A stretch of DNA of 64,000 nt, taken from Leifsonia sp. TF02-11 (GTDB lineage Bacteria > Actinomycetota > Actinomycetes > Actinomycetales > Microbacteriaceae). The stretch lies in the NCBI RefSeq assembly GCF_017565305.1, contig NZ_JAGEKP010000001.1, positions 124,001 through 188,000 of the forward strand, given 5' to 3'. Positions 2,920-38,349 of the stretch are shown one piece after another; position 1 is the stretch's first letter, and every line of letters starts with the position of its first letter. Under the pieces are notes generated by a model. That model searched no databases. It saw only the letters and a list, made by a program, of their open reading frames with translations, and had not been told where the DNA came from. Made by a program: the position numbers and the translations under genes.

Positions 2920-4550
2920 GCACCACAGACTTCTCCCCCGAGCGCAGCGCCGCCATCCGGCAGTTGCTGCTCGATACCGTCGCCGACGAGCCGCGCCGCC
3001 GCAAGCGCCTCCAGATCCTGCTCACCAGCCTCCTCTCCGCAGTCGCGATCCTCCTCGCCGGCGGAACCGCCGCGCTCGCCCTCACCGGCGTGATCCATCT
3101 CGGCGGAGGCGACACCCCTCCCGCCCCCGTCCCCACACCGACGCAGACGGTCACGCCGACGCCCACACCGACACCGACGCCCACGCAACGGTCGATTGCG
3201 GTGCAGGCCTCGCCGATCACTCTGCATGATGTGACATCCATCCCGAAAAGCCCAAGCTGGGTGGCGGATCTCCCGGGCTACCAATACGCATGTCAGCAAA
3301 TCCAGACCTACGACATCGCTGACGGTTTGGCCCTATTCAGCGTTGGATCGAATCTCGGACCCGCTCACGACGGCTGCCCCATCGGGAAGGGTGTCGCCTC
3401 GCTGAGCATGATGGATACCACCAGCGGGCGAGTGGTCTGGTCCCGCAGCTGGCAGTGGGAGAGCGACAAGGGGTACGGCACCTTCCTTTCGATCCTCGGG
3501 ACCTCCAATAGAGCAGTCCTCATGGACGAGAGCGGAACCACGGGGCCCCGCGACATCATCGATCTCGCCACCGGCTCCACGATCGCGACCCTGCCGAACG
3601 ACCTCGGCAAGTATCCGAACTGGCGGATCAGCCCGGTCTGGGGGCCGTCCGGGGACGTCATCTGGTCACAGCCCGTGCTCGACGCCGCCGGGACCATGAC
3701 CGCAATCGATGTGCAGCGTATCGATCCACGTGACTTCGCCTCGGCAAAATGGAAGACCACGATTCCGGCCGTCGAAACCGGTCGGGCCGACGTCGGGTTC
3801 GTGTCCGACGGACTGGTGTCGTACTCCTACCGGAGCCCCACCCTCGGCTGGCGCTCTGCACTGCTCGACCTCAGCACCGGGGAACTCAGCAACGACGTCC
3901 CGAGCGACGCTGCGTACGCCGACGCGCGGATGAGCGACACAGTGGTCGTGCAATACCGCGATTTCATCTCGGGCATCCCGGGGACCGTGGCGGGCATCGA
4001 CAGACGAACCGGCGAAACGCTTTGGACCAAGCCGTTCGAGCAGGGCTCCTCCATCTCTGTCGTGCGGACCATCGCGCGTCAGCCGGGGTCGTTCGTATCC
4101 GACCAAGGAATGTCCTCCGGCGAATTCGCCCTCGTGACGCCACATACCTTGACTCACTTCGACGCCGTGACAGGCAGCCCCAAGATGACCGCGGACGTGA
4201 CCCACTGCGGTCTCGCGGGTTGGTATTGGGCGAACGGAGGGCCCGACATCGAGGCGGACGACAGTCGCAACTCGATCGTGCTGGTGCTGGGGCCGTGGCA
4301 GACGTGCTCGGTCGACCGTGAAACGGGCGCGCCGACGCCCCTCCAGGATCACGAAGGCGGATGGCCCCTGTTCGGCACTGAAGCCACCTATGTGAATGGA
4401 GCTGCTGATCCCGGCGGAACCGGTAGCGCGTTTGACCGTCGAGACGGGCGGGAACTGTGGAACATCACCGTGGACCGAGACGAACGGTGGTACTTCGCGG
4501 GCGGAGTACTTGTCCGGCAGCTCGGCAACCACATCGAGCCGATCGGCTGA
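2916..4550 (+). CDS. Membrane-anchored PQQ-like beta-propeller protein, candidate sigma-factor partner
   Basis: A 544-residue protein with a short cytoplasmic N-terminus (1-30), one membrane segment (about 32-60), a Thr-Pro repeat linker (about 72-90) and a large outside domain. The outside domain has repeated patterns such as GRVVWSRSW, GETLWTKPF and GRELWN, which resemble PQQ-like/quinoprotein propeller blades. The four-base overlap with the ECF sigma factor places it in the usual anti-sigma position, and the cytoplasmic end is long enough for a small sigma-binding segment. I see no zinc-binding HxxxCxxC anti-sigma motif. The proposed role as signal sensor for the sigma factor is inference from position; the propeller call is from repeat pattern only. 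Confidence 0.72.
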   Translation: MSTTDFSPERSAAIRQLLLDTVADEPRRRKRLQILLTSLLSAVAILLAGGTAALALTGVIHLGGGDTPPAPVPTPTQTVTPTPTPTPTPTQRSIAVQASPITLHDVTSIPKSPSWVADLPGYQYACQQIQTYDIADGLALFSVGSNLGPAHDGCPIGKGVASLSMMDTTSGRVVWSRSWQWESDKGYGTFLSILGTSNRAVLMDESGTTGPRDIIDLATGSTIATLPNDLGKYPNWRISPVWGPSGDVIWSQPVLDAAGTMTAIDVQRIDPRDFASAKWKTTIPAVETGRADVGFVSDGLVSYSYRSPTLGWRSALLDLSTGELSNDVPSDAAYADARMSDTVVVQYRDFISGIPGTVAGIDRRTGETLWTKPFEQGSSISVVRTIARQPGSFVSDQGMSSGEFALVTPHTLTHFDAVTGSPKMTADVTHCGLAGWYWANGGPDIEADDSRNSIVLVLGPWQTCSVDRETGAPTPLQDHEGGWPLFGTEATYVNGAADPGGTGSAFDRRDGRELWNITVDRDERWYFAGGVLVRQLGNHIEPIG

Positions 4551-4986: not shown

Positions 4987-5298
4987 TCACGCAAACGGAA
5001 CTTCAACCCCACACGCGGGACAGACCCGGGGCGCGCGCTCAACTTGGTCCGGGTATCGCGCGTCGCGCAGGACCTTCCCAACGAGAGCCACCGCGCCCGG
5101 CGCCTCATCGGCAGCCACGCAGAGGGCCTGTTCCAGCGTCTCCGCCACGTCGCCCCGCGGGTCCTGCCTCACGGCCGCAGCCAGCCGCGACCAGTCCTCA
5201 ATGTCGCCCCTCTCTAGGGCGGCGAGGACTCCCTCGAAACCCCACTCTGAAACAGGACCCTCAGGGTTCGCGTCATTGTTGCGGAAGCGGACGATCAT
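4987..5298 (-). CDS. Truncated protein like the N-terminus of an actinobacterial XRE-type regulator
   Basis: A 103-residue cytoplasmic protein. Residues 1-75 (including GPVSEWGFEGVLAALERG and DWSRLAAAVRQDP) resemble, from memory, the N-terminal domain of actinobacterial helix-turn-helix proteins in which this domain precedes a C-terminal XRE helix-turn-helix. Here that DNA-binding half is missing and the end is RVCPACGVEVPFA, a single CxxC pair. It overlaps the upstream gene by four bases (ATGA), so it is the last gene of the operon running from 7182 to 4987. It may be a broken regulator or antitoxin-like remnant kept by translational coupling. The family assignment is not verified. Confidence 0.55.
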   Translation of the reverse strand: MIVRFRNNDANPEGPVSEWGFEGVLAALERGDIEDWSRLAAAVRQDPRGDVAETLEQALCVAADEAPGAVALVGKVLRDARYPDQVERAPRVCPACGVEVPFA

Positions 5299-31339: not shown

Positions 31340-32904
31340 CCGCCAGCACCGCCAGCACCACCGCCGCCGCCGCCGAGTACGACTACGTCGTGGTCGGCGG
31401 CGGCACCGCGGGCGGCATCGTCGCCGCGCGCCTCTCCGAGGATCCGTCCGTCACCGTCGGCCTCCTGGAGTGGGGGCCGAGCGACCGCGACGAGGGCAGG
31501 GCCCGGTCGATCCGGCGCTGGGAGGAGATGATCGAGAGCGAGTACGACCTCGACTATCGCAGCGTGCCGCAGGAGCGGGGCAACTCGACCATCCGGCAGT
31601 CGCGCATGCGGATCCTCGGCGGCTGCTCGACGGCGAACACCATGATCGCCTGGCGGCCGCCCGCCTCCGACCTCGACGAATGGGTCGCGGCCGGGGCCAC
31701 CGGGTGGGATGCCGCGAGCTTCCAGCCCTACTACGACCGGTTGCGCATCCCCATCCACCCCGTGGGCCGACCGGATCGGAACCCGTTCGTCGCCGATGTC
31801 GTCGCGTCCGCCGTCGCTGCCCTCGACCTCCCCCGGCAGGAGCGCTGGAACGACGGTCGCACCGATACGCTCGCGCGCGGCGCCGGCTTCTTCGAGGTCG
31901 GCTACGACCCGCAGACCAACGTGCGCGGGTCGAGCTCGATCCACTACCTCCACGACGTCATGGACGACCGGGCATCGCTGGACGTGATCACCGGCGCCCG
32001 CGCCGAGCGGGTGGTCGTCGAAGGCGGCCGTGCGGTCGCCGTGGTCTACCGCTCGGCGGACGGCGAGCTGCACACCGTGCGTGCCCGTCGCGAGATCGTC
32101 CTCGCCTGCGGGGCGATCGACACACCGCGGCTGCTGCTGCTCTCGGGAATCGGCCCGGCCTCTGTGCTGGAGGCGGCCGGAGTGGCGGTCGTGCTGGACT
32201 TGCCGGGCGTGGGGGAGAACCTCCAGGACCACGCCGAAGGACTCGTGGTGTGGGAGGCTTTGTCGGCCCCGCCCGCGATCTCGGCCTCCGGCTGGGATGC
32301 CGGCGCGATGGTCGGCGTCGACGGCGACCCGACCAAGGCGGACGTGCTGATGCACTTCCCGGTCGAGCCGGTCGTCGACCACCCGCGGGCACGCGGGGTG
32401 TCGTTCCCGTCGACGATCGTCGCGATCGCGCCGAACGTGGCGAAGCCGCACAGCCGCGGCCGGGTCACCATCGCCTCCGCCGACCCGGACGAGCCGCCGG
32501 TGATCGACTACCGCTACTTCACCGACGCCGCGGGCCACGACGAGCGGATGCTCGTCGCCGGCGTGCGCCTGGCCCGGCGGATCGCCGAGGCCGAGCCGAT
32601 GCGCAGCCACCTGGTGCGCGAGGTCTTCCCCGGACCCGACGTGCAGACCGACGAGGAGCTCTCGGCGGTGCAGCGCGACATCCACCAGACCGTCTACCAC
32701 GTGAGCGGCACCTGCCGGATCGGCGCCGCCGACGACGCGCTCGCGGTGGTGGACCCGTCGCTCCGGGTGCGGGGGATCGACGGGCTGCGGATCGCGGACG
32801 CGTCGGTGTTCCCGACGCTGACCTCGGTGAACCCGGTCATCACGGTGATGATGGTGGCGGAGCGGGCGGCGGAGTTGATCGCGGCGCGGGAAATGCAAGT
32901 GTAG
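31336..32904 (+). CDS. GMC family FAD-dependent oxidoreductase
   Basis: A 522-residue flavoenzyme. The FAD-binding GGGTAGG motif is near residues 21-27 (YDYVVVGGGTAGG). GMC signatures include ILGGCSTANTMI and the C-terminal catalytic pair His (YHVSGTCRIG) and Asn (SVNPVITVMMVAERAAE). It oxidises an alcohol (choline/glucose-oxidase superfamily). It is translationally coupled to the NCS1 permease. The substrate is unknown. Confidence 0.93.
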   Translation: MTASTASTTAAAAEYDYVVVGGGTAGGIVAARLSEDPSVTVGLLEWGPSDRDEGRARSIRRWEEMIESEYDLDYRSVPQERGNSTIRQSRMRILGGCSTANTMIAWRPPASDLDEWVAAGATGWDAASFQPYYDRLRIPIHPVGRPDRNPFVADVVASAVAALDLPRQERWNDGRTDTLARGAGFFEVGYDPQTNVRGSSSIHYLHDVMDDRASLDVITGARAERVVVEGGRAVAVVYRSADGELHTVRARREIVLACGAIDTPRLLLLSGIGPASVLEAAGVAVVLDLPGVGENLQDHAEGLVVWEALSAPPAISASGWDAGAMVGVDGDPTKADVLMHFPVEPVVDHPRARGVSFPSTIVAIAPNVAKPHSRGRVTIASADPDEPPVIDYRYFTDAAGHDERMLVAGVRLARRIAEAEPMRSHLVREVFPGPDVQTDEELSAVQRDIHQTVYHVSGTCRIGAADDALAVVDPSLRVRGIDGLRIADASVFPTLTSVNPVITVMMVAERAAELIAAREMQV

Positions 32905-32937
32905 GAACCGGGTTGGTGGCGCCCCTTCTCGATCTGT

Positions 32938-32973
32938 GAAATGCTGCATTTCTGTGCAACCGAGTGTTGCGCA
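32938..32973. promoter_or_regulatory. Paired inverted repeats upstream of the peptide-exporter operon
   Basis: A perfect 15-bp palindrome GAAATGC-T-GCATTTC (32938-32952) is followed at once by TGTGCAAC (32953-32960) and GTTGCGCA (32966-32973), a 7-of-8 inverted repeat. Both lie 40-75 bases before the first gene of the operon. They look like operator sites for an unlinked regulator. Confidence 0.55.
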
Positions 32974-33012
32974 GGAAGCGGAAGAACATCACAGTTCGGG
33001 GACACTCTGAAG

Positions 33013-33306
33013 TTGAAGAAGACTCGTGCACGCGCCATTCTGAGCGCGGCAGCGCTGCTCACCGTTGCGGGAGGGGTGGTGGCGACGTCGGTTCCGGCGA
33101 GCGCGGCACTCACACACACGCAACGCGTCGGAGTGCTCTATACCAGCAAGATCTATCACTACGCCGATTCGTTCGGGCAGATCCGGCACTACGTGGTTGC
33201 GCAGGGCAGGACCATCCACGCAAACTGGGCCCGTCCGAGTGTTTGGTCGGATCAGGGTCTGAGCTACGCCGGAATCACGTCCTACGGCGTCAACGGAACC
33301 CCGTAA
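33013..33306 (+). CDS. Small Sec-secreted peptide, first gene of the exporter operon
   Basis: A 97-residue precursor. From TTG 33013 the N-terminus is a textbook Sec signal: KKTRAR, a hydrophobic core and an ASA cleavage site near residue 33. The predicted mature peptide is about 65 residues, starts LTHTQRVGV, has no Cys and is rich in Tyr, His and Trp (YHYADSF, HANWARP). An upstream ATG (32941) in the same frame would spoil the signal peptide. It is followed within 11 bases by a lipoprotein and an adaptor-ATPase-permease exporter. It resembles a bacteriocin or signal peptide precursor by context only; I do not recognise the family. Confidence 0.65.
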   Translation: MKKTRARAILSAAALLTVAGGVVATSVPASAALTHTQRVGVLYTSKIYHYADSFGQIRHYVVAQGRTIHANWARPSVWSDQGLSYAGITSYGVNGTP

Positions 33307-33316
33307 GGGCCACTCG

Positions 33317-33922
33317 TTGGCTTACACGTCACTCGTCCGCGCGGCAGTGGTGGCATTTGCCGTCACTGCCGCGTTGTCGGGTTGTTCGGAGACCTCCTCG
33401 TCGCCAGACGGAGTGGGTCCGTCGGCCGGGGTCTACACCGGCCCTGTGCCAGCGTTTTCGGGACCGTGGGCGTCAGAGTTCGCAGCGGCGTTTCGTTCTA
33501 CCAAAAGTGAAGTAGTCCACGCGATTCTTGAGAAGGGATCAATCACTGACCAGGATTACGCCGAGGTGAGCAGCGCCTATGTCAGGTGCATGGCGAACAA
33601 GGGTTTCACGGCGACAATTACCGGGCCAGCGGGTGAGGGAACCGTGGACGCAGGCGAGGAGAGCTTTGAAGCCGAAGCTGAGTGCAATGCCGACCTCTCT
33701 GTCATTGCAATGCTGAGAGGAGCCATCCTCCGCAACCCGGACCATCGCGACGAGGAAGAGATCGTCGCAGCCTGTCTCGTAGCCAAGAAAGTGGCGCCGC
33801 CCGGCTACGCCAAGCGGGATTACGAAGCGGATCTCCAGTCCCAGAAATTCCCATATAGCATCGATGACCCGGGCTTCTCGGCGTGCGTCAACGACCCGCT
33901 CGGTCTGGCGTCCGGACGGTGA
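33317..33922 (+). CDS. Lipoprotein of the exporter operon
   Basis: A 201-residue lipoprotein from TTG 33317 with AAGGG upstream. The lipobox is LSGC (Cys at about residue 23), followed by a Ser-rich linker and a mostly helical outside domain. The outside domain has conserved-looking Cys residues in YVRCMANKGF, AECNADL, AACLVAKK and SACVNDP. Such Cys-containing lipoproteins accompany adaptor/ABC operons in actinomycetes. The stop overlaps the adaptor start by four bases (GTGA). It may be an immunity or docking protein; this is inference. Confidence 0.7.
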   Translation: MAYTSLVRAAVVAFAVTAALSGCSETSSSPDGVGPSAGVYTGPVPAFSGPWASEFAAAFRSTKSEVVHAILEKGSITDQDYAEVSSAYVRCMANKGFTATITGPAGEGTVDAGEESFEAEAECNADLSVIAMLRGAILRNPDHRDEEEIVAACLVAKKVAPPGYAKRDYEADLQSQKFPYSIDDPGFSACVNDPLGLASGR

Positions 33923-35010
33923 GGCGCTTCCTCCAGCGCCCGTCGTTGCCCGCTGTTGTGGTCGGCGTCGTTGTATCCCTCGGAGTAGGTCTACTCGTAG
34001 GAGTCTTGGCTGTGCGGCCTACCGCACCCGCGGCCATCGCGCCGAGCGCCTCGCTCGCCGTGGCTCCGGTTAAGGAAGTGCAAACCCTCGACGAACAGCC
34101 CGCGACACTCGCGGTCACGGCTTCGCCGGCGAAGGGCCTCACATCTTCGATGGCGGGAACAGTGACGAGCACATTGTGCATAGCCGGTGGCTCAGCCACT
34201 TCGGGTAACGCCGCGTTGTCCATCAACGACGAAATGATTGTCTACCTCGCCACGTCGCGGCCGTTGTGGCGCGACCTCGCCGTCGGTGACGTGGGCGCGG
34301 ACGTCCGTTCCCTTCAGGAGGAGTTGGTGACACTGGGTCACGCGATCCGGCCCGACGGGCGATTCGGAACGGCGACGCTCAGAGCAGTCGTCGAGGTGGC
34401 CGAGAAGGCCGGAGCGAGCGACGCGGCCACATGGTCGGTGCTACCCCACGATCGCGTGATCTGGCTTCCTGCACGGGCTGTTCAAACGGTGACCTGCGAT
34501 CGTCGGCTAGGCGACAGGGTGAGCGAAGGCGACGCGGTTGCGACGCTTCCCAGCGGAGTGGCCGCCGCCAAGGTCTCACCGCTGCCGGCGAATGCTCTAT
34601 CGGGCGACAGGGTGGTGGTCGTCGGCGACCTGACACTTCCCGTCGACGCGTCCGGATCAATCGCGGCCGCCGAAAGTCTCGTCCGGCTGGCGCAATCCAC
34701 TGAATATCGGGAACATGCCGATCGCGCGAGCACCGATGAGTCCGGTGCCGCTCCCTTCACCGGTGGTTCGGCGGGGGCAGAGCTATCGATCACGTATCGG
34801 CTCGCCACGCCTGTCAGCGTCATCTCGGTTCCCGCCGCGTCCGTGTACGACACGCACGGAGCCGCGGCGTGCGTGGCTGTGAGGGGCCGCGGTATCGCGA
34901 TGACGATAGTAGGTTCGCAGCTGGGGCAAACCTTCGTCGTTCCTGAGCAGGACGTACGGGTCCGCGAAGTCGACCTCGACACGAGAGACGCGTCGGCATG
35001 CCGAAAGTAG
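33919..35010 (+). CDS. HlyD/YknX-like adaptor with a peptidoglycan-binding domain
   Basis: A 363-residue membrane fusion protein. One N-terminal membrane helix (about 10-35) is followed by a split lipoyl-like/beta-barrel adaptor domain into which a PG_binding_1 domain is inserted (about 130-180, GDVGADVRSLQEELVTLGH, DGRFGTATLRAV). The C-terminal part resumes the adaptor fold. This architecture is common in actinobacterial tripartite-like ABC systems. The GTG 33919 overlaps the lipoprotein stop. It would link the permease to the cell wall during export. Confidence 0.82.
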   Translation: MRRFLQRPSLPAVVVGVVVSLGVGLLVGVLAVRPTAPAAIAPSASLAVAPVKEVQTLDEQPATLAVTASPAKGLTSSMAGTVTSTLCIAGGSATSGNAALSINDEMIVYLATSRPLWRDLAVGDVGADVRSLQEELVTLGHAIRPDGRFGTATLRAVVEVAEKAGASDAATWSVLPHDRVIWLPARAVQTVTCDRRLGDRVSEGDAVATLPSGVAAAKVSPLPANALSGDRVVVVGDLTLPVDASGSIAAAESLVRLAQSTEYREHADRASTDESGAAPFTGGSAGAELSITYRLATPVSVISVPAASVYDTHGAAACVAVRGRGIAMTIVGSQLGQTFVVPEQDVRVREVDLDTRDASACRK

Positions 35011-35624
35011 GCTCCGGCCACGATCGGCGTGTCGTAGCGACGGAGCTCTCGCACCGATTCGGGGAGGCGCCCATCCTCTTCGGCGGGCTGAGCTTCACCC
35101 TCGTGCCGAATGAGGTCTATGCCCTGACCGGTCCGTCAGGGTCGGGGAAGAGCACGCTCCTCAGTGTGCTCGCCGGATGGCTCGAGCCGGCCTCGGGCAG
35201 CCTGTCGCGGGTGAACATCGGCAAGATCTCCTGGATTTTCCAGAACCCGCACGGGGTCGCCGCTCGAACGGCCGAGGATCATGTCGCCCTCCCGCTCTTG
35301 GCGCAGGGACGAGCGCACGAAGACGCCCGCGCGGAGGCTCGGGTCCGATTGGCGCACGTCGGACTGTCGCAGGTCGCCGGATCGCCCTTCCGAGAGTTGT
35401 CGGGAGGCGAAGCGCAGAGGCTGATGCTTGCTCGAGGGTTGGCCTCTGAACCCGATCTCCTCTTGGTAGATGAGCCGACGGCGCAGCTCGACCCCCGTAC
35501 CGCCGCCGCGGTCAACGAAGCGATCGCATCGGTCGCAGGACAGGGATGCATCGTGGTCGTTGCCACCCACGATCCACGAACGCGAGCCGCGTGCACCGGT
35601 GTCATCGATCTGGCCGGCCAATGA
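34998..35624 (+). CDS. ABC transporter ATP-binding protein (MacB/YknY-like)
   Basis: A 208-residue ATPase with Walker A GPSGSGKST (about 45-53), Q-loop WIFQNPHG, signature LSGGEAQRL (about 134-142), Walker B LLLVDEPTAQLD and the switch His in ATHDP. It belongs to the LolD/MacB/FtsE class that pairs with FtsX-like permeases. It overlaps the adaptor gene by 13 bases and the permease gene by four (ATGA). Confidence 0.93.
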   Translation: MPKVGSGHDRRVVATELSHRFGEAPILFGGLSFTLVPNEVYALTGPSGSGKSTLLSVLAGWLEPASGSLSRVNIGKISWIFQNPHGVAARTAEDHVALPLLAQGRAHEDARAEARVRLAHVGLSQVAGSPFRELSGGEAQRLMLARGLASEPDLLLVDEPTAQLDPRTAAAVNEAIASVAGQGCIVVVATHDPRTRAACTGVIDLAGQ

Positions 35625-36706
35625 GGCTTCGTTCGCTCGTCCGCGAAGCCGCGCTGAACGTCGCCAGCGGGACGACGCGGGCGGCAGTCTTCTGCCTTGC
35701 CCTCGCGTGCGTCGTCGTCGCGTGTGCAGGAGCAGACGTCGCACAAGTCGCGGACATCGGGCACCGCGCTGCAGAGTTTCGCGACCGGGGCGGTTCGACG
35801 CTCGTGTATCGGATGAAGAACGGAATCGACGCATCGGTCTGCGATCGGCTCATGGCGATCCCGGGAGTATCCGCGGCCGGAGCAGTGCGACAACGGAGCA
35901 GTGGAGAGGTTGCGGCGGCATTGCCGGACCAGGTCATTCCGACCTTCGATGTCTCCGCCGGATTCGGAGGCTTCAGAGCACTCGGTGGGGTATCAGCGGC
36001 GAACGGTGTCTTCATCGCAGAAGACCTGGCATCCACGCTGGGCGTCGTGCCTGGCCGGTCGCTCGCGCTGGCCGCGGGCGATTCCCGTATCGGAGCTGTG
36101 TTCCGCTATCCCGCCGATGGGCGACTCTCCGGCTACGGCTATTCGATTCTGAGTCCCACCGACGCTTCTCAACCATACGACGAGTGCTGGATCGAGGCAT
36201 GGCCGGCGACGGATGCACTCCTCTCCGTCGTCCCGACAGTTCTGATGCCCGGTGCTGCCTCGAACGTTGCTCCAGGCCAAGGGCCCCAGCTCAAACAGCT
36301 GAACGCATCTCTCGGCACCCGATTCGACGGCGCTCACACCTTCGAGAGTAGGATCACGCGATTTGCGCCAGAGGTGGTCGTCTTCATCGGCATCATCCTG
36401 GGGTACCTCTCCGTCACTCGTCGGAGGCTGGAACTGGCAGCAAGCCGCCACGCTGGAGTAAGTGCCGCCGGCCAGGCATTCCAGCTGATGGTCGAATCGC
36501 TCGTATGGTCTGCTACCGCGTCGATCGTCGCGCTGCCGCTGCTCGGGACGTTCGTGGTGGTGCAGCAGGCGGGAGATCCGTCGTCGTTGTTGAGCGTCGC
36601 GGTGTGGCCCGTGGCGGCCTCGATGCCGGCTGTCCTCATTGGAACGATCAGCGGGGTTCTCTCTGTACGAGAACGGCACCTGTTCGTCTACTTCAAGTCT
36701 CGATGA
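35621..36706 (+). CDS. FtsX/MacB-like ABC permease
   Basis: A 361-residue permease with one N-terminal helix (about 20-40), a large outside domain (about 45-245) and three C-terminal helices (about 250-270, 300-322 and 328-350). This is the MacB/FtsX topology, in which ATP hydrolysis moves the outside domain instead of opening a channel. It is the last gene of the five-gene operon and the partner of the ATPase at 34998. It ends 16 bases before the convergent APC permease gene. Confidence 0.85.
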   Translation: MRLRSLVREAALNVASGTTRAAVFCLALACVVVACAGADVAQVADIGHRAAEFRDRGGSTLVYRMKNGIDASVCDRLMAIPGVSAAGAVRQRSSGEVAAALPDQVIPTFDVSAGFGGFRALGGVSAANGVFIAEDLASTLGVVPGRSLALAAGDSRIGAVFRYPADGRLSGYGYSILSPTDASQPYDECWIEAWPATDALLSVVPTVLMPGAASNVAPGQGPQLKQLNASLGTRFDGAHTFESRITRFAPEVVVFIGIILGYLSVTRRRLELAASRHAGVSAAGQAFQLMVESLVWSATASIVALPLLGTFVVVQQAGDPSSLLSVAVWPVAASMPAVLIGTISGVLSVRERHLFVYFKSR

Positions 36707-36722
36707 GCGCGACGGGGGCGCC

Positions 36723-38246
36723 TCAGTCGCGCACCGGCTCGAGCAGCAGCTCCGGGCCCGGGGCGACCCGGCGGTCGCGCGCCCGCTGCCAGAAGTAGCC
36801 GGCCAGCGCCAGCACTGTGATGACGATCAGCGTCCCCACGGTGAAGCCCTCGAAGGTCGGCCGGTCGACGCCCCAGGTGTCGACGAAGTCGTATGTGAGG
36901 CCGAACAGCGACTCGAGCGTTCCGGGGAAGACCGCCACCCAGGAGCCGAGGAGCACCCAGGCGTAGATGACCACGACCGCGGTCCACAGGCCGGCGCGGC
37001 CTCCGGGGACGCGGAACGGGCGCTCGATGTCCGGGTACTTCCGGCGGAGCCGGATGATCGACGGGAAGATCACCAGGTACGACAGCAGCAGCGTCGAGAT
37101 GGCGACGGTCAGCACCACGGTGAAGACGGCGGCGGTGCTGCCCTTCAGCAGCAGGGTCGCGGCGATGCAGAAGACGGTGGCGACGATCCCGGAGAGCATG
37201 TTCATCCGCACCGGGGTGCCGAACCGCTTCGAGAAGACGCCGAAGTAGCGGAAGAACGCGCCGTCGGCGCCCGCCGCCGCCTGCACGCGGTCGGACGCGA
37301 TCATCCAGGCGCTCGCCTGCGTCAGCACCACGAACACGAACAGCAGCGCCGCGACGAACATGACGGGGCCGGTGGCGATCCCGTAGACCGAGAACACCTC
37401 CTTGAAGGCGTCGAGGAGGCCGCTCGCGCCCTGCACCTTGTCGGCCGGGAGCACCGCCAGGATGGCGAAGATGGGGACGAGGTAGCAGAGGATCGAGATG
37501 ATTCCGGAGGAGGCGATCGCCTTCGGGACGTCCTTCTGCGGGTTGCGCATCTCTTCGGCCGCGCCGTTGGGCGCCTCGAAGCCGACGACGGCGAACAGGA
37601 TGACCGGCGTCACCGCGAGGAAGCCGCTGAGCGTGGGGGAGAAGGCGCCGGCCGCGTAGCCGTGCACGCCGTTCTTCATGGCGTAGACGACCACGGTGAC
37701 GACGAAGACCAGCAGCAGCGCGATCTTGACGACCGCTCCCGCGGCGACGATGTGCTTGCCGTAGCGGAGGCCGATGATCGCCGTTCCGATGGCCAGCCAG
37801 ATGAACACCAGCTTGAAGACGATGTCACCCGCGCTGCCCTCCGGAAGCGGTGCGATGTACGCGCCCCAGGTCGCCGCGGAGATGAACACCAGCGAGCCGC
37901 CCATCCAGAGCGGATTGGTGATCCAGTAGAAGAGCGTCGCGATCGCACCGGTCAGCTTGCCGAACGCGAGCCGCACCCAGACGAAAGGCCCGCCTTCGTC
38001 GTGGAAGGTGCTGCCCAGCTCGGAGATCACCAGTGCATACGGGAAGAGGAAGGTGACGCCGATGATGGCGGTCCAGGTGAACGCCTCGGCGCCGCCTCCC
38101 GCGGCGATCTGCGCGACCGTGTCGATGGAGATGACGGCGCTGATCGACAGGAAGACGATGTCGAGCCGGCCCAGCGTCTTGTGGAAGCGCTGGGCCCGGA
38201 TGCTCGACGTCGTGAGCTTCGCGTCGTTCCGGGTGGATGAACTCAT
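36723..38246 (-). CDS. APC family amino acid/amine permease
   Basis: A 507-residue transporter with about 12 membrane helices. It has the family pattern near the N-terminus (DIVFLSISAVISIDTVAQIAAGG) and GFEAPNGAAEEMRNPQKDVPKAI, typical of the amino acid-polyamine-organocation family, glutamate:GABA antiporter-like branch. The next gene on the same strand upstream is an aldehyde dehydrogenase of the aminoaldehyde type, so amine or GABA-like substrates are plausible. Confidence 0.9.
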   Translation of the reverse strand: MSSSTRNDAKLTTSSIRAQRFHKTLGRLDIVFLSISAVISIDTVAQIAAGGGAEAFTWTAIIGVTFLFPYALVISELGSTFHDEGGPFVWVRLAFGKLTGAIATLFYWITNPLWMGGSLVFISAATWGAYIAPLPEGSAGDIVFKLVFIWLAIGTAIIGLRYGKHIVAAGAVVKIALLLVFVVTVVVYAMKNGVHGYAAGAFSPTLSGFLAVTPVILFAVVGFEAPNGAAEEMRNPQKDVPKAIASSGIISILCYLVPIFAILAVLPADKVQGASGLLDAFKEVFSVYGIATGPVMFVAALLFVFVVLTQASAWMIASDRVQAAAGADGAFFRYFGVFSKRFGTPVRMNMLSGIVATVFCIAATLLLKGSTAAVFTVVLTVAISTLLLSYLVIFPSIIRLRRKYPDIERPFRVPGGRAGLWTAVVVIYAWVLLGSWVAVFPGTLESLFGLTYDFVDTWGVDRPTFEGFTVGTLIVITVLALAGYFWQRARDRRVAPGPELLLEPVRD

Positions 38247-38349
38247 CGGGGACTCCTTCGTCCTGACATTCTCGTGGGGTGGGGTGACTGACGGAGCAGG
38301 GCGAACGCGCGGCCGAGGTCCAGGACGCGCTCAGCGCCGCCGGGCCGGG

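Follow-up and report, generated by a model that had tools for sequence, protein, structure and literature searches.

What would an actinobacterium do with a small secreted peptide that is encoded in one operon with a lipoprotein and a MacB-like transporter, and is such a peptide a toxin or a signal? The question is raised by a stretch of 64,000 nucleotides from Leifsonia sp. TF02-11 (contig NZ_JAGEKP010000001.1, positions 124,001 to 188,000; hereafter the window), in which genes for a peptide, a lipoprotein, an adaptor, an ATPase and a permease follow one another in this order on the forward strand (33013-36706), neighbours overlapping or nearly touching. All five were found where an earlier sequence-only reading had placed them; that reading had left the peptide as a toxin or signal with a machine of its own. 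We consider it probable that the five-gene unit is a bacteriocin cassette of the lactococcin 972 (Lcn972) locus kind in an actinobacterial form, with a cognate immunity or extrusion pump and an accessory lipoprotein; the antibacterial activity and the role of the pump we infer by analogy.

Paralogous cassettes, peptide families and the probable pairing of peptide with pump

The genome holds four copies of the cassette (window, contig 7, contig 23, and contig 5), those on contigs 23 and 5 located by a permease profile search. PF09683 (Lactococcin_972) is over its cut-off once in the genome, on contig 7 and outside the window, in a cassette whose five genes correspond in kind and order to those of the window. 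The contig 7 peptide passes the cut-offs of PF09683 (41 bits) and TIGR01653 (44.6 bits), and the accompanying proteins are 36% (lipoprotein), 33% (adaptor, 356 columns), 58% (ATPase), and 35% (permease) identical to those of the window. Since the peptide slot of this paralogue holds a Lactococcin_972 bacteriocin, the cassette is best read as a bacteriocin-type locus, and homology moves the earlier alternative of toxin or signal towards toxin; toxicity, immunity, and the role of the pump we still infer.

The window precursor begins with a Sec-type signal as read by eye (basic N-terminus, hydrophobic core, AxA cleavage site with ASA followed by A), which leaves a Cys-free mature part of 66 residues by sequence reading, as previously described to within a residue. 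Its only matches in Pfam and NCBIfam are far below the cut-offs (DUF624, 13.8 against 24.2 bits; PRK07801, 13.9 against 591), in agreement with the statement that it belongs to no known family; an unrelated secreted family, the outcome that had been named as a refutation, was found in neither database. Two candidate assignments were rejected: an ordinary Lcn972 peptide is ruled out by profiles (Pfam, NCBIfam, and a local Lcn profile), and a link to JUQZ-1/BLB8 (NF053514; PMC11747845, which, like all papers given here by PMC number, is cited from excerpts) has a match only in the relatives L072 and L075, at 18 bits against a cut-off of 40, NF053514 being absent from the NCBIfam matches of the window peptide itself.

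By profile comparison the window peptide is a member of a second, unnamed peptide family, here called type b. Built from five mature members without the window sequence, a first profile finds the window peptide at 21.4 bits (E 9.9e-5 among 10,865 open reading frames, ORFs), and an eight-sequence profile, also without it, scores it at 30.4 bits, which 0 of 10,000 shuffles reached (9,750 reported, best 11.4). The family pattern, seen by eye, is RH[WY]...W....WS.Q..C....SYG. Three cysteines occur in 9 of 13 aligned members, two in L113 and L138, one in L104, and none in the window (L numbers denote loci, G numbers genomes), so that the window peptide is treated as a Cys-poor branch of type b. L104, from Candidatus Lumbricidophila eiseniae, is the nearest relative found (peptide 36% identical, NWARP stretch common to both). 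None of eight members tested is named by any Pfam or NCBIfam profile, and genome mining may therefore under-count such loci. The type-b label of L122 and L139 was given by eye; their scores are only 2.6 and 7.6 bits. A search of 299 genomes of the family with the single window sequence gave matches at E<=1 in 148 genomes, none besides the window better than E 1e-3; the weak matches in the organism's own contig 23 (E 0.06) and in G125 (E 0.31) were later shown to be cassette peptides. In L105 (around 5020-5297), as in L097 (around 1743-2075), the gene for the type-b peptide is divided over two frames and is therefore probably broken or misassembled.

Whether the peptide gene stays beside the exporter, a check that the sequence-only reading had suggested, was followed with the type-b profile; exporter operons that consistently lack the peptide gene, its other refuting outcome, were not what the cassettes showed. 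Among 28 genomes of the genus it gave ten matches at E<=0.001, three of them model members; the other seven all lie 2247-2332 bases 5' of a cassette permease on the same strand, the permeases coming from a separate search. These seven are from five genomes (G684, G685, G686, G688 three times, and G700); those in G685 and G686 are similar to the contig 23 row of the model, and the one in G700 contains an internal stop. On its contig C1, G688 thus has three type-b peptides (L196, L199, L200), every one of them next to a cassette permease of its own. Among the 299 family genomes, 8 of 8 strong matches (E<=3e-7) lie 2.3-3.0 kb 5' of a cassette permease, a partly circular count, as six were already in the model, for which the genus set is the cleaner test. 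Weak matches in G191 (7.8e-4) and G208 (8.6e-3), and four more (2e-3 to 8e-3) in a further, likewise partly circular type-b scan, are in genomes for which no cassette permease was reported and were taken as noise; inspection of the G191 locus (L180) found no cassette gene.

Peptide type was then placed on a tree of adaptor plus permease with 65 cassettes, of which 50 have an assigned peptide (29 Lcn, 17 type b, 4 other) and 15 have no identified peptide. Type b is explained by 4 changes on this tree, where shuffled labels need 14.2 on average; for Lcn the figures are 5 and 16.1, and for neither type was any of 500 shuffles as low. The "other" group does not clearly cluster (3 changes against 3.9 after shuffling). 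The window and L104 are sister rows (Shimodaira-Hasegawa-like approximate likelihood ratio test, SH-aLRT, 99). The large type-b clade has a support of 88 only, three b rows fall outside it, and five of its rows have no assigned peptide; when these were searched again, only L127 yielded a type-b-like ORF, a weak one (E 0.022). Left out of the tree were L084 (near L083) and L091 (peptide same as L090), nine loci repeating fetched genomes (L109, L111, L115-L117, L126, L131, L134, L140), loci that lacked adaptor or permease or had diverged too far (L097, L099-L103, L137, L145-L149), and cassettes that came to light afterwards (L173-L178 and the copies from the genus); near-copies that were kept (L033/L132, L072/L075, L114/L124) favour clustering. 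Among 12 type-b members, peptide identity is correlated with transporter identity (Mantel r 0.70, a value reached in 5 of 10,000 permutations). Because each of the four cassettes of the genome has its own pump, and because peptide type tracks pump phylogeny, pump and peptide are probably a cognate pair, as judged from these sequence comparisons.

The slot is filled by other peptides elsewhere. Type a (Lcn972) passed PF09683 in 6 of 6 cases tested and TIGR01653 in 2 of 5, the remaining three being just under (27.6-29.9 against 32.1 bits). Type c was found in three genomes (L173-L175) from another family of the class; scored against a profile made from the remaining three, every one of its four members stays above all 2000 shuffles, in one case by a small margin (14.3 against 12.9 bits). 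Of eight comparisons of type c with the profiles of types a and b, seven fall within the range of the shuffles (120 or more scoring as high); the eighth, L174 against type b, is borderline at 6.9 bits (a score that 6 of 2000 shuffles reached, the best at 14.3), so that types b and c may be distantly linked. Four slot peptides are unclassified (L065 on the organism's own contig 5, L086, L092, L107). L173 has two secreted type-c peptides (1665-1988 and 3242-3568) and two lipoprotein-like ORFs in one cassette, which suggests a duplicated peptide-lipoprotein pair.

Proposed function and alternatives

The mature peptide is predicted to be a small basic beta-sandwich: AlphaFold2, run with nine type-b sequences, gave an all-beta model of the window peptide (predicted local distance difference test, pLDDT, 85.4; predicted template modelling score, pTM, 0.68). 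Among 350,542 chains Foldseek ranks Lcn972 (Protein Data Bank, PDB, 2LGN; 66 residues) fourth, and VIA-align superposes 54 of 66 residues on it (Z 4.4, root-mean-square deviation 2.7, rank 6). VIA-align places higher de novo DIG proteins, a GH39 entry, and Formosin D (PDB 9hkj, Z 4.8), and FN3 domains just below. Formosin D was dropped as a lead, the literature matches on this name being a paper on plant diterpenoids and an unrelated review. The resemblance of the model to Lcn972 is weak and suggestive only.

Several observations weigh against a bacteriocin of the Lcn972 kind. Neither PF09683 nor TIGR01653 is among the matches of the window peptide at E<=1; the local Lcn profile gives it 2.3 bits, a score reached by 988 of 9,961 reported shuffles, and the comparison of type-b and Lcn profiles has a probability of 0.8%. 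The Foldseek match to Lcn972 is weak (E 0.52), and VIA-align warns that a Z under 8, as with 2LGN, may reflect a common arrangement. Pfam and NCBIfam searches of the five genes found no regulator and no known bacteriocin-immunity family. The peptide is without the type-b cysteines and might be decayed, 15 of 65 tree cassettes are without an identified peptide, and joint vertical inheritance contributes to the pairing signal and may itself produce it.

These points bear differently on the alternatives. The lack of cysteines, the cassettes without identified peptide, and the reported occurrence of scbBC without a bacteriocin gene (PMC11796350) would suit a decayed bacteriocin, inactive after loss of its cysteines, with the pump kept as orphan immunity; given that the peptide ORF is intact and all five genes are open in a unit absent from the congeners examined, that the nearest relative L104 has a single Cys and shares the NWARP stretch, and that the Cys-free model is fairly confident (pLDDT 85), we regard decay as the least probable explanation. 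The same cassettes without peptide, together with the detoxification of external peptides by MacB relatives (PMC5985334), would also fit a general pump for envelope stress or antimicrobial peptides, the peptide then being a Sec-secreted helper or decoy and not a toxin. Such a role is unlikely in view of the tracking of pump phylogeny by peptide type and the bacteriocin family of the Lcn-type members, and some of the copies without peptide may be artefacts of contig ends (in L096 and L120 the sequence 5' of the lipoprotein match is shorter than 460 bp).

That the peptide is a signal between cells, exported or sensed by the pump, would agree with a small secreted peptide that has its own transporter, and the four cassettes of the genome, each with a different peptide, could act in parallel as separate channels. 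Against this stand the PF09683 bacteriocins in the same slot, the predicted 66-residue sandwich, which is not a short pheromone, and the inserted unit itself, in which Pfam and NCBIfam searches found no kinase or regulator family and which is flanked by two permeases, a GMC oxidoreductase, and an aldehyde dehydrogenase; a signal is improbable on this evidence.

If the unit is a bacteriocin cassette, its working can be outlined as follows. The Sec-type signal read from the sequence would take the peptide out of the cytoplasm, so the ATP-binding cassette (ABC) system is probably not needed for crossing the membrane; secretion of streptococcin B is likewise consistent with Sec (PMC11796350). Outside, the mature peptide would fold as the predicted sandwich and, to judge from the Lcn972-type relatives in the same slot, might inhibit related Gram-positive bacteria, probably through a target in wall synthesis; Lcn972 itself binds lipid II and blocks septum formation (PMC9964109). 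Permease and ATPase would then drive the peptide from the space between membrane and wall through the peptidoglycan-anchored adaptor. Precedents are MacAB export of Sec-secreted STII, MacB being held to act on substrates outside the membrane, and protection by YknXYZ against SDP, a Sec-secreted 42-residue peptide with one disulfide (PMC5985334). Clearing of the peptide would most likely protect the producer (immunity) and may also aid peptide release. The lipoprotein might capture the peptide at the membrane and pass it to the pump, or be a second immunity factor.

A wider proposal, for which we see about an even chance, is a modular actinobacterial weapon with one chassis (lipoprotein, wall-anchored adaptor, ATPase, four-transmembrane-segment permease) and interchangeable peptides from three or more families between which profiles show no clear relationship (Lcn972, b, and c), beside unclassified ones; the pump would be tuned to its own peptide, a lipoprotein with a fold lacking a clear PDB match would hand the peptide over, and the window would hold a Cys-free member. 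What makes the system worth pursuing is that the peptide types are very unlike one another while the pump genes can still be aligned, that four cassettes occur in one genome, and that the pump parts are separate and testable.

Components, insertion site and distribution

Features are collected in Table 1. The protein types named in the sequence-only reading all stood: a Cys-containing lipoprotein, an adaptor with an inserted PG_binding_1 domain, a MacB/LolD-type ATPase, and an FtsX-type permease. In an alignment of 31 lipoproteins four further cysteines are invariant besides the lipobox Cys, itself invariant by construction because the rows were cut to begin there; L109 and L126 (no lipobox by the pattern used) and L142 (wrong frame) were left out. 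The AlphaFold2 model of the lipoprotein is helical (pLDDT 90.5) and has no Foldseek match at E<=0.001 and no Z>=5 in the PDB; the protein may nonetheless belong to a known family. Tandem lipoprotein duplicates stand between peptide and adaptor in L122 (4600-5283 and 5280-5894) and L142 (4623-5252 and 5213-5863).

An N-terminal hydrophobic segment and a gene overlapping its neighbours in the operon mark the second protein of the chassis as a membrane-anchored adaptor. Its PG_binding_1 domain scores 21.5 bits, just below the cut-off of 23, and the adaptor family profile matches solved peptidoglycan-binding domains in the PDB at E 8e-6, and CusB/MexC-like adaptors only at E 0.05-0.14. The ATPase reaches 113 bits against TIGR03608 (L_ocin_972_ABC), under the cut-off of 254.85. 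Hydropathy places the permease transmembrane segments at residues 22-40, 245-263, 289-307, and 323-341 (one N-terminal, three C-terminal); with a looser threshold, four were counted in 37 of the 65 tree rows and another number in 28. The permease has no Pfam or NCBIfam match at E<=1; its best PDB profile match is MacB (5gko), weak at E 0.035.

Table 1 Positions of the cassette and its parts in the window, with the basis of each assignment.
Feature	Position	Strand	Basis or remark
Whole inserted cassette	32889..36709	+	blastn of window 31900-38300 against seven congener loci
Perfect palindrome GAAATGCTGCATTTC	32938..32952	.	~60 nt 5' of peptide start; sequence
Secreted peptide precursor, 97 aa	33013..33306	+	TTG start; CTG at 33007 also fits
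Mature peptide, 66 aa	33106-33303	+	Cys-free; isoelectric point about 9.6; charge about +3
Lipoprotein	33317..33922	+	Lipobox LSGC; anchored Cys codon at 33383
Membrane-anchored adaptor, 363 aa	33919..35010	+	GTG start overlapping lipoprotein stop
Peptidoglycan-binding domain inside adaptor	34294..34395	+	PF01471; residues 125-158 of translation from 33922
ABC ATPase, LolD/MacB-like	34998..35624	+	PF00005 (ABC_tran), 95 bits
Permease, 361 aa	35621..36706	+	Four predicted transmembrane segments and large outside domain; MacB/FtsX layout

The unit extends over about 32.89-36.71 kb, between genes for a cytosine/purine permease and the GMC oxidoreductase on the left and for an amino-acid permease and the aldehyde dehydrogenase on the right (Pfam). 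The upstream flank is matched at eight places outside the organism's own genome (84-93% identity over nearly the whole length), and at all seven congener loci examined (seven genomes) the cassette is absent and the flank matches lie 94-858 bp apart; blastn matches of the window to the congeners stop at 32873-32888 and resume at 36708-36725. As the two flanks are neighbours there, the five genes were gained or lost as one unit, and this absence together with the recurrence of the gene order in other cassettes argues for an operon beyond chance. The last codons of the upstream GMC oxidoreductase (32889-32904) seem derived from the inserted segment, because the congener matches end before them. 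The empty sites (L183-L189) hold palindromic repeats resembling repetitive extragenic palindromic (REP) elements (AACGGAGGAGATCC...GGATCTCCTCCGTT and variants) in stretches of about 100 to 858 bp; 22 copies of the REP-like 14-mer occur elsewhere in the Leifsonia sp. TF02-11 genome, against 0 of a reversed control, and none in the window.

The palindrome before the peptide gene is a possible operator; among the loci compared it is present only in copies of the window itself. An Rfam scan of the window gave a single tRNA only, and sigma-70 promoter and terminator scans were uninformative. The upstream motif AAATGYAA, present in 1 of 54 upstream regions and in 20 of 10,800 random stretches, was dropped as a common signal.

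Including Leifsonia sp. TF02-11 itself, matches to the permease profile occur in 34 of 299 genomes of the family, where some of them are partial, in 16 of 28 genus genomes, and in 7 of 394 genomes drawn from the class. With 12 adaptors as queries, named genomes yielded 46 loci, the last five (L145-L149) being partial; they are from Arthrobacter, Cellulomonas/Cellulosimicrobium, Microbacteriaceae, Bifidobacteriaceae, Actinomycetaceae, and Propionibacteriaceae. A plasmid search with the permease found no match, and a phage search with the adaptor found two short faecal records that carry no annotation (29 and 31% identity).

Comparison with known systems

The comparison of the sequence-only reading with YknXYZ held for the architecture; the nearer relatives, which it did not name, are the Lcn972-type loci (lcn972-orf2-orf3; streptococcin B, scbABC; mediterrocin). 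Like these, the window has a peptide with a Sec-type signal and a mature part near 66 residues, followed by ABC-type genes, and the Lcn972 cluster carries putative ABC immunity genes (PMC4055356). Lcn972 loci often hold a DUF1430 protein (PMC12345188); unlike them, the window cassette has no match to this seven-transmembrane family and has a lipoprotein, a peptidoglycan-binding adaptor, and a four-transmembrane permease. Actinobacterial loci are also known from Curtobacterium sp. APC 4022, in which Lcn972-like clusters were predicted, one of which contains two hypothetical genes besides two ABC genes (PMC10456417). That cluster may be the same cassette; compared by description only, the excerpted account mentions no lipoprotein/adaptor architecture, second peptide family, or pairing. 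Among the papers listed in searches of the open-access literature, none was seen to describe the lipoprotein-adaptor architecture or a type-b peptide.

With YknWXYZ of Bacillus and other Gram-positive MacAB-like pumps the window shares a separate adaptor, an ATPase, and a MacB-type permease; it differs from YknWXYZ in that its operon includes the peptide gene and a lipoprotein and in that its adaptor has an inserted peptidoglycan-binding domain. YknX is not known to have such a domain. As in MacAB-TolC with STII, a MacB pump would take up a small protein already exported by Sec (PMC5985334); unlike that system, there is no outer membrane or TolC here, and the wall-binding domain of the adaptor would replace the outer anchor.

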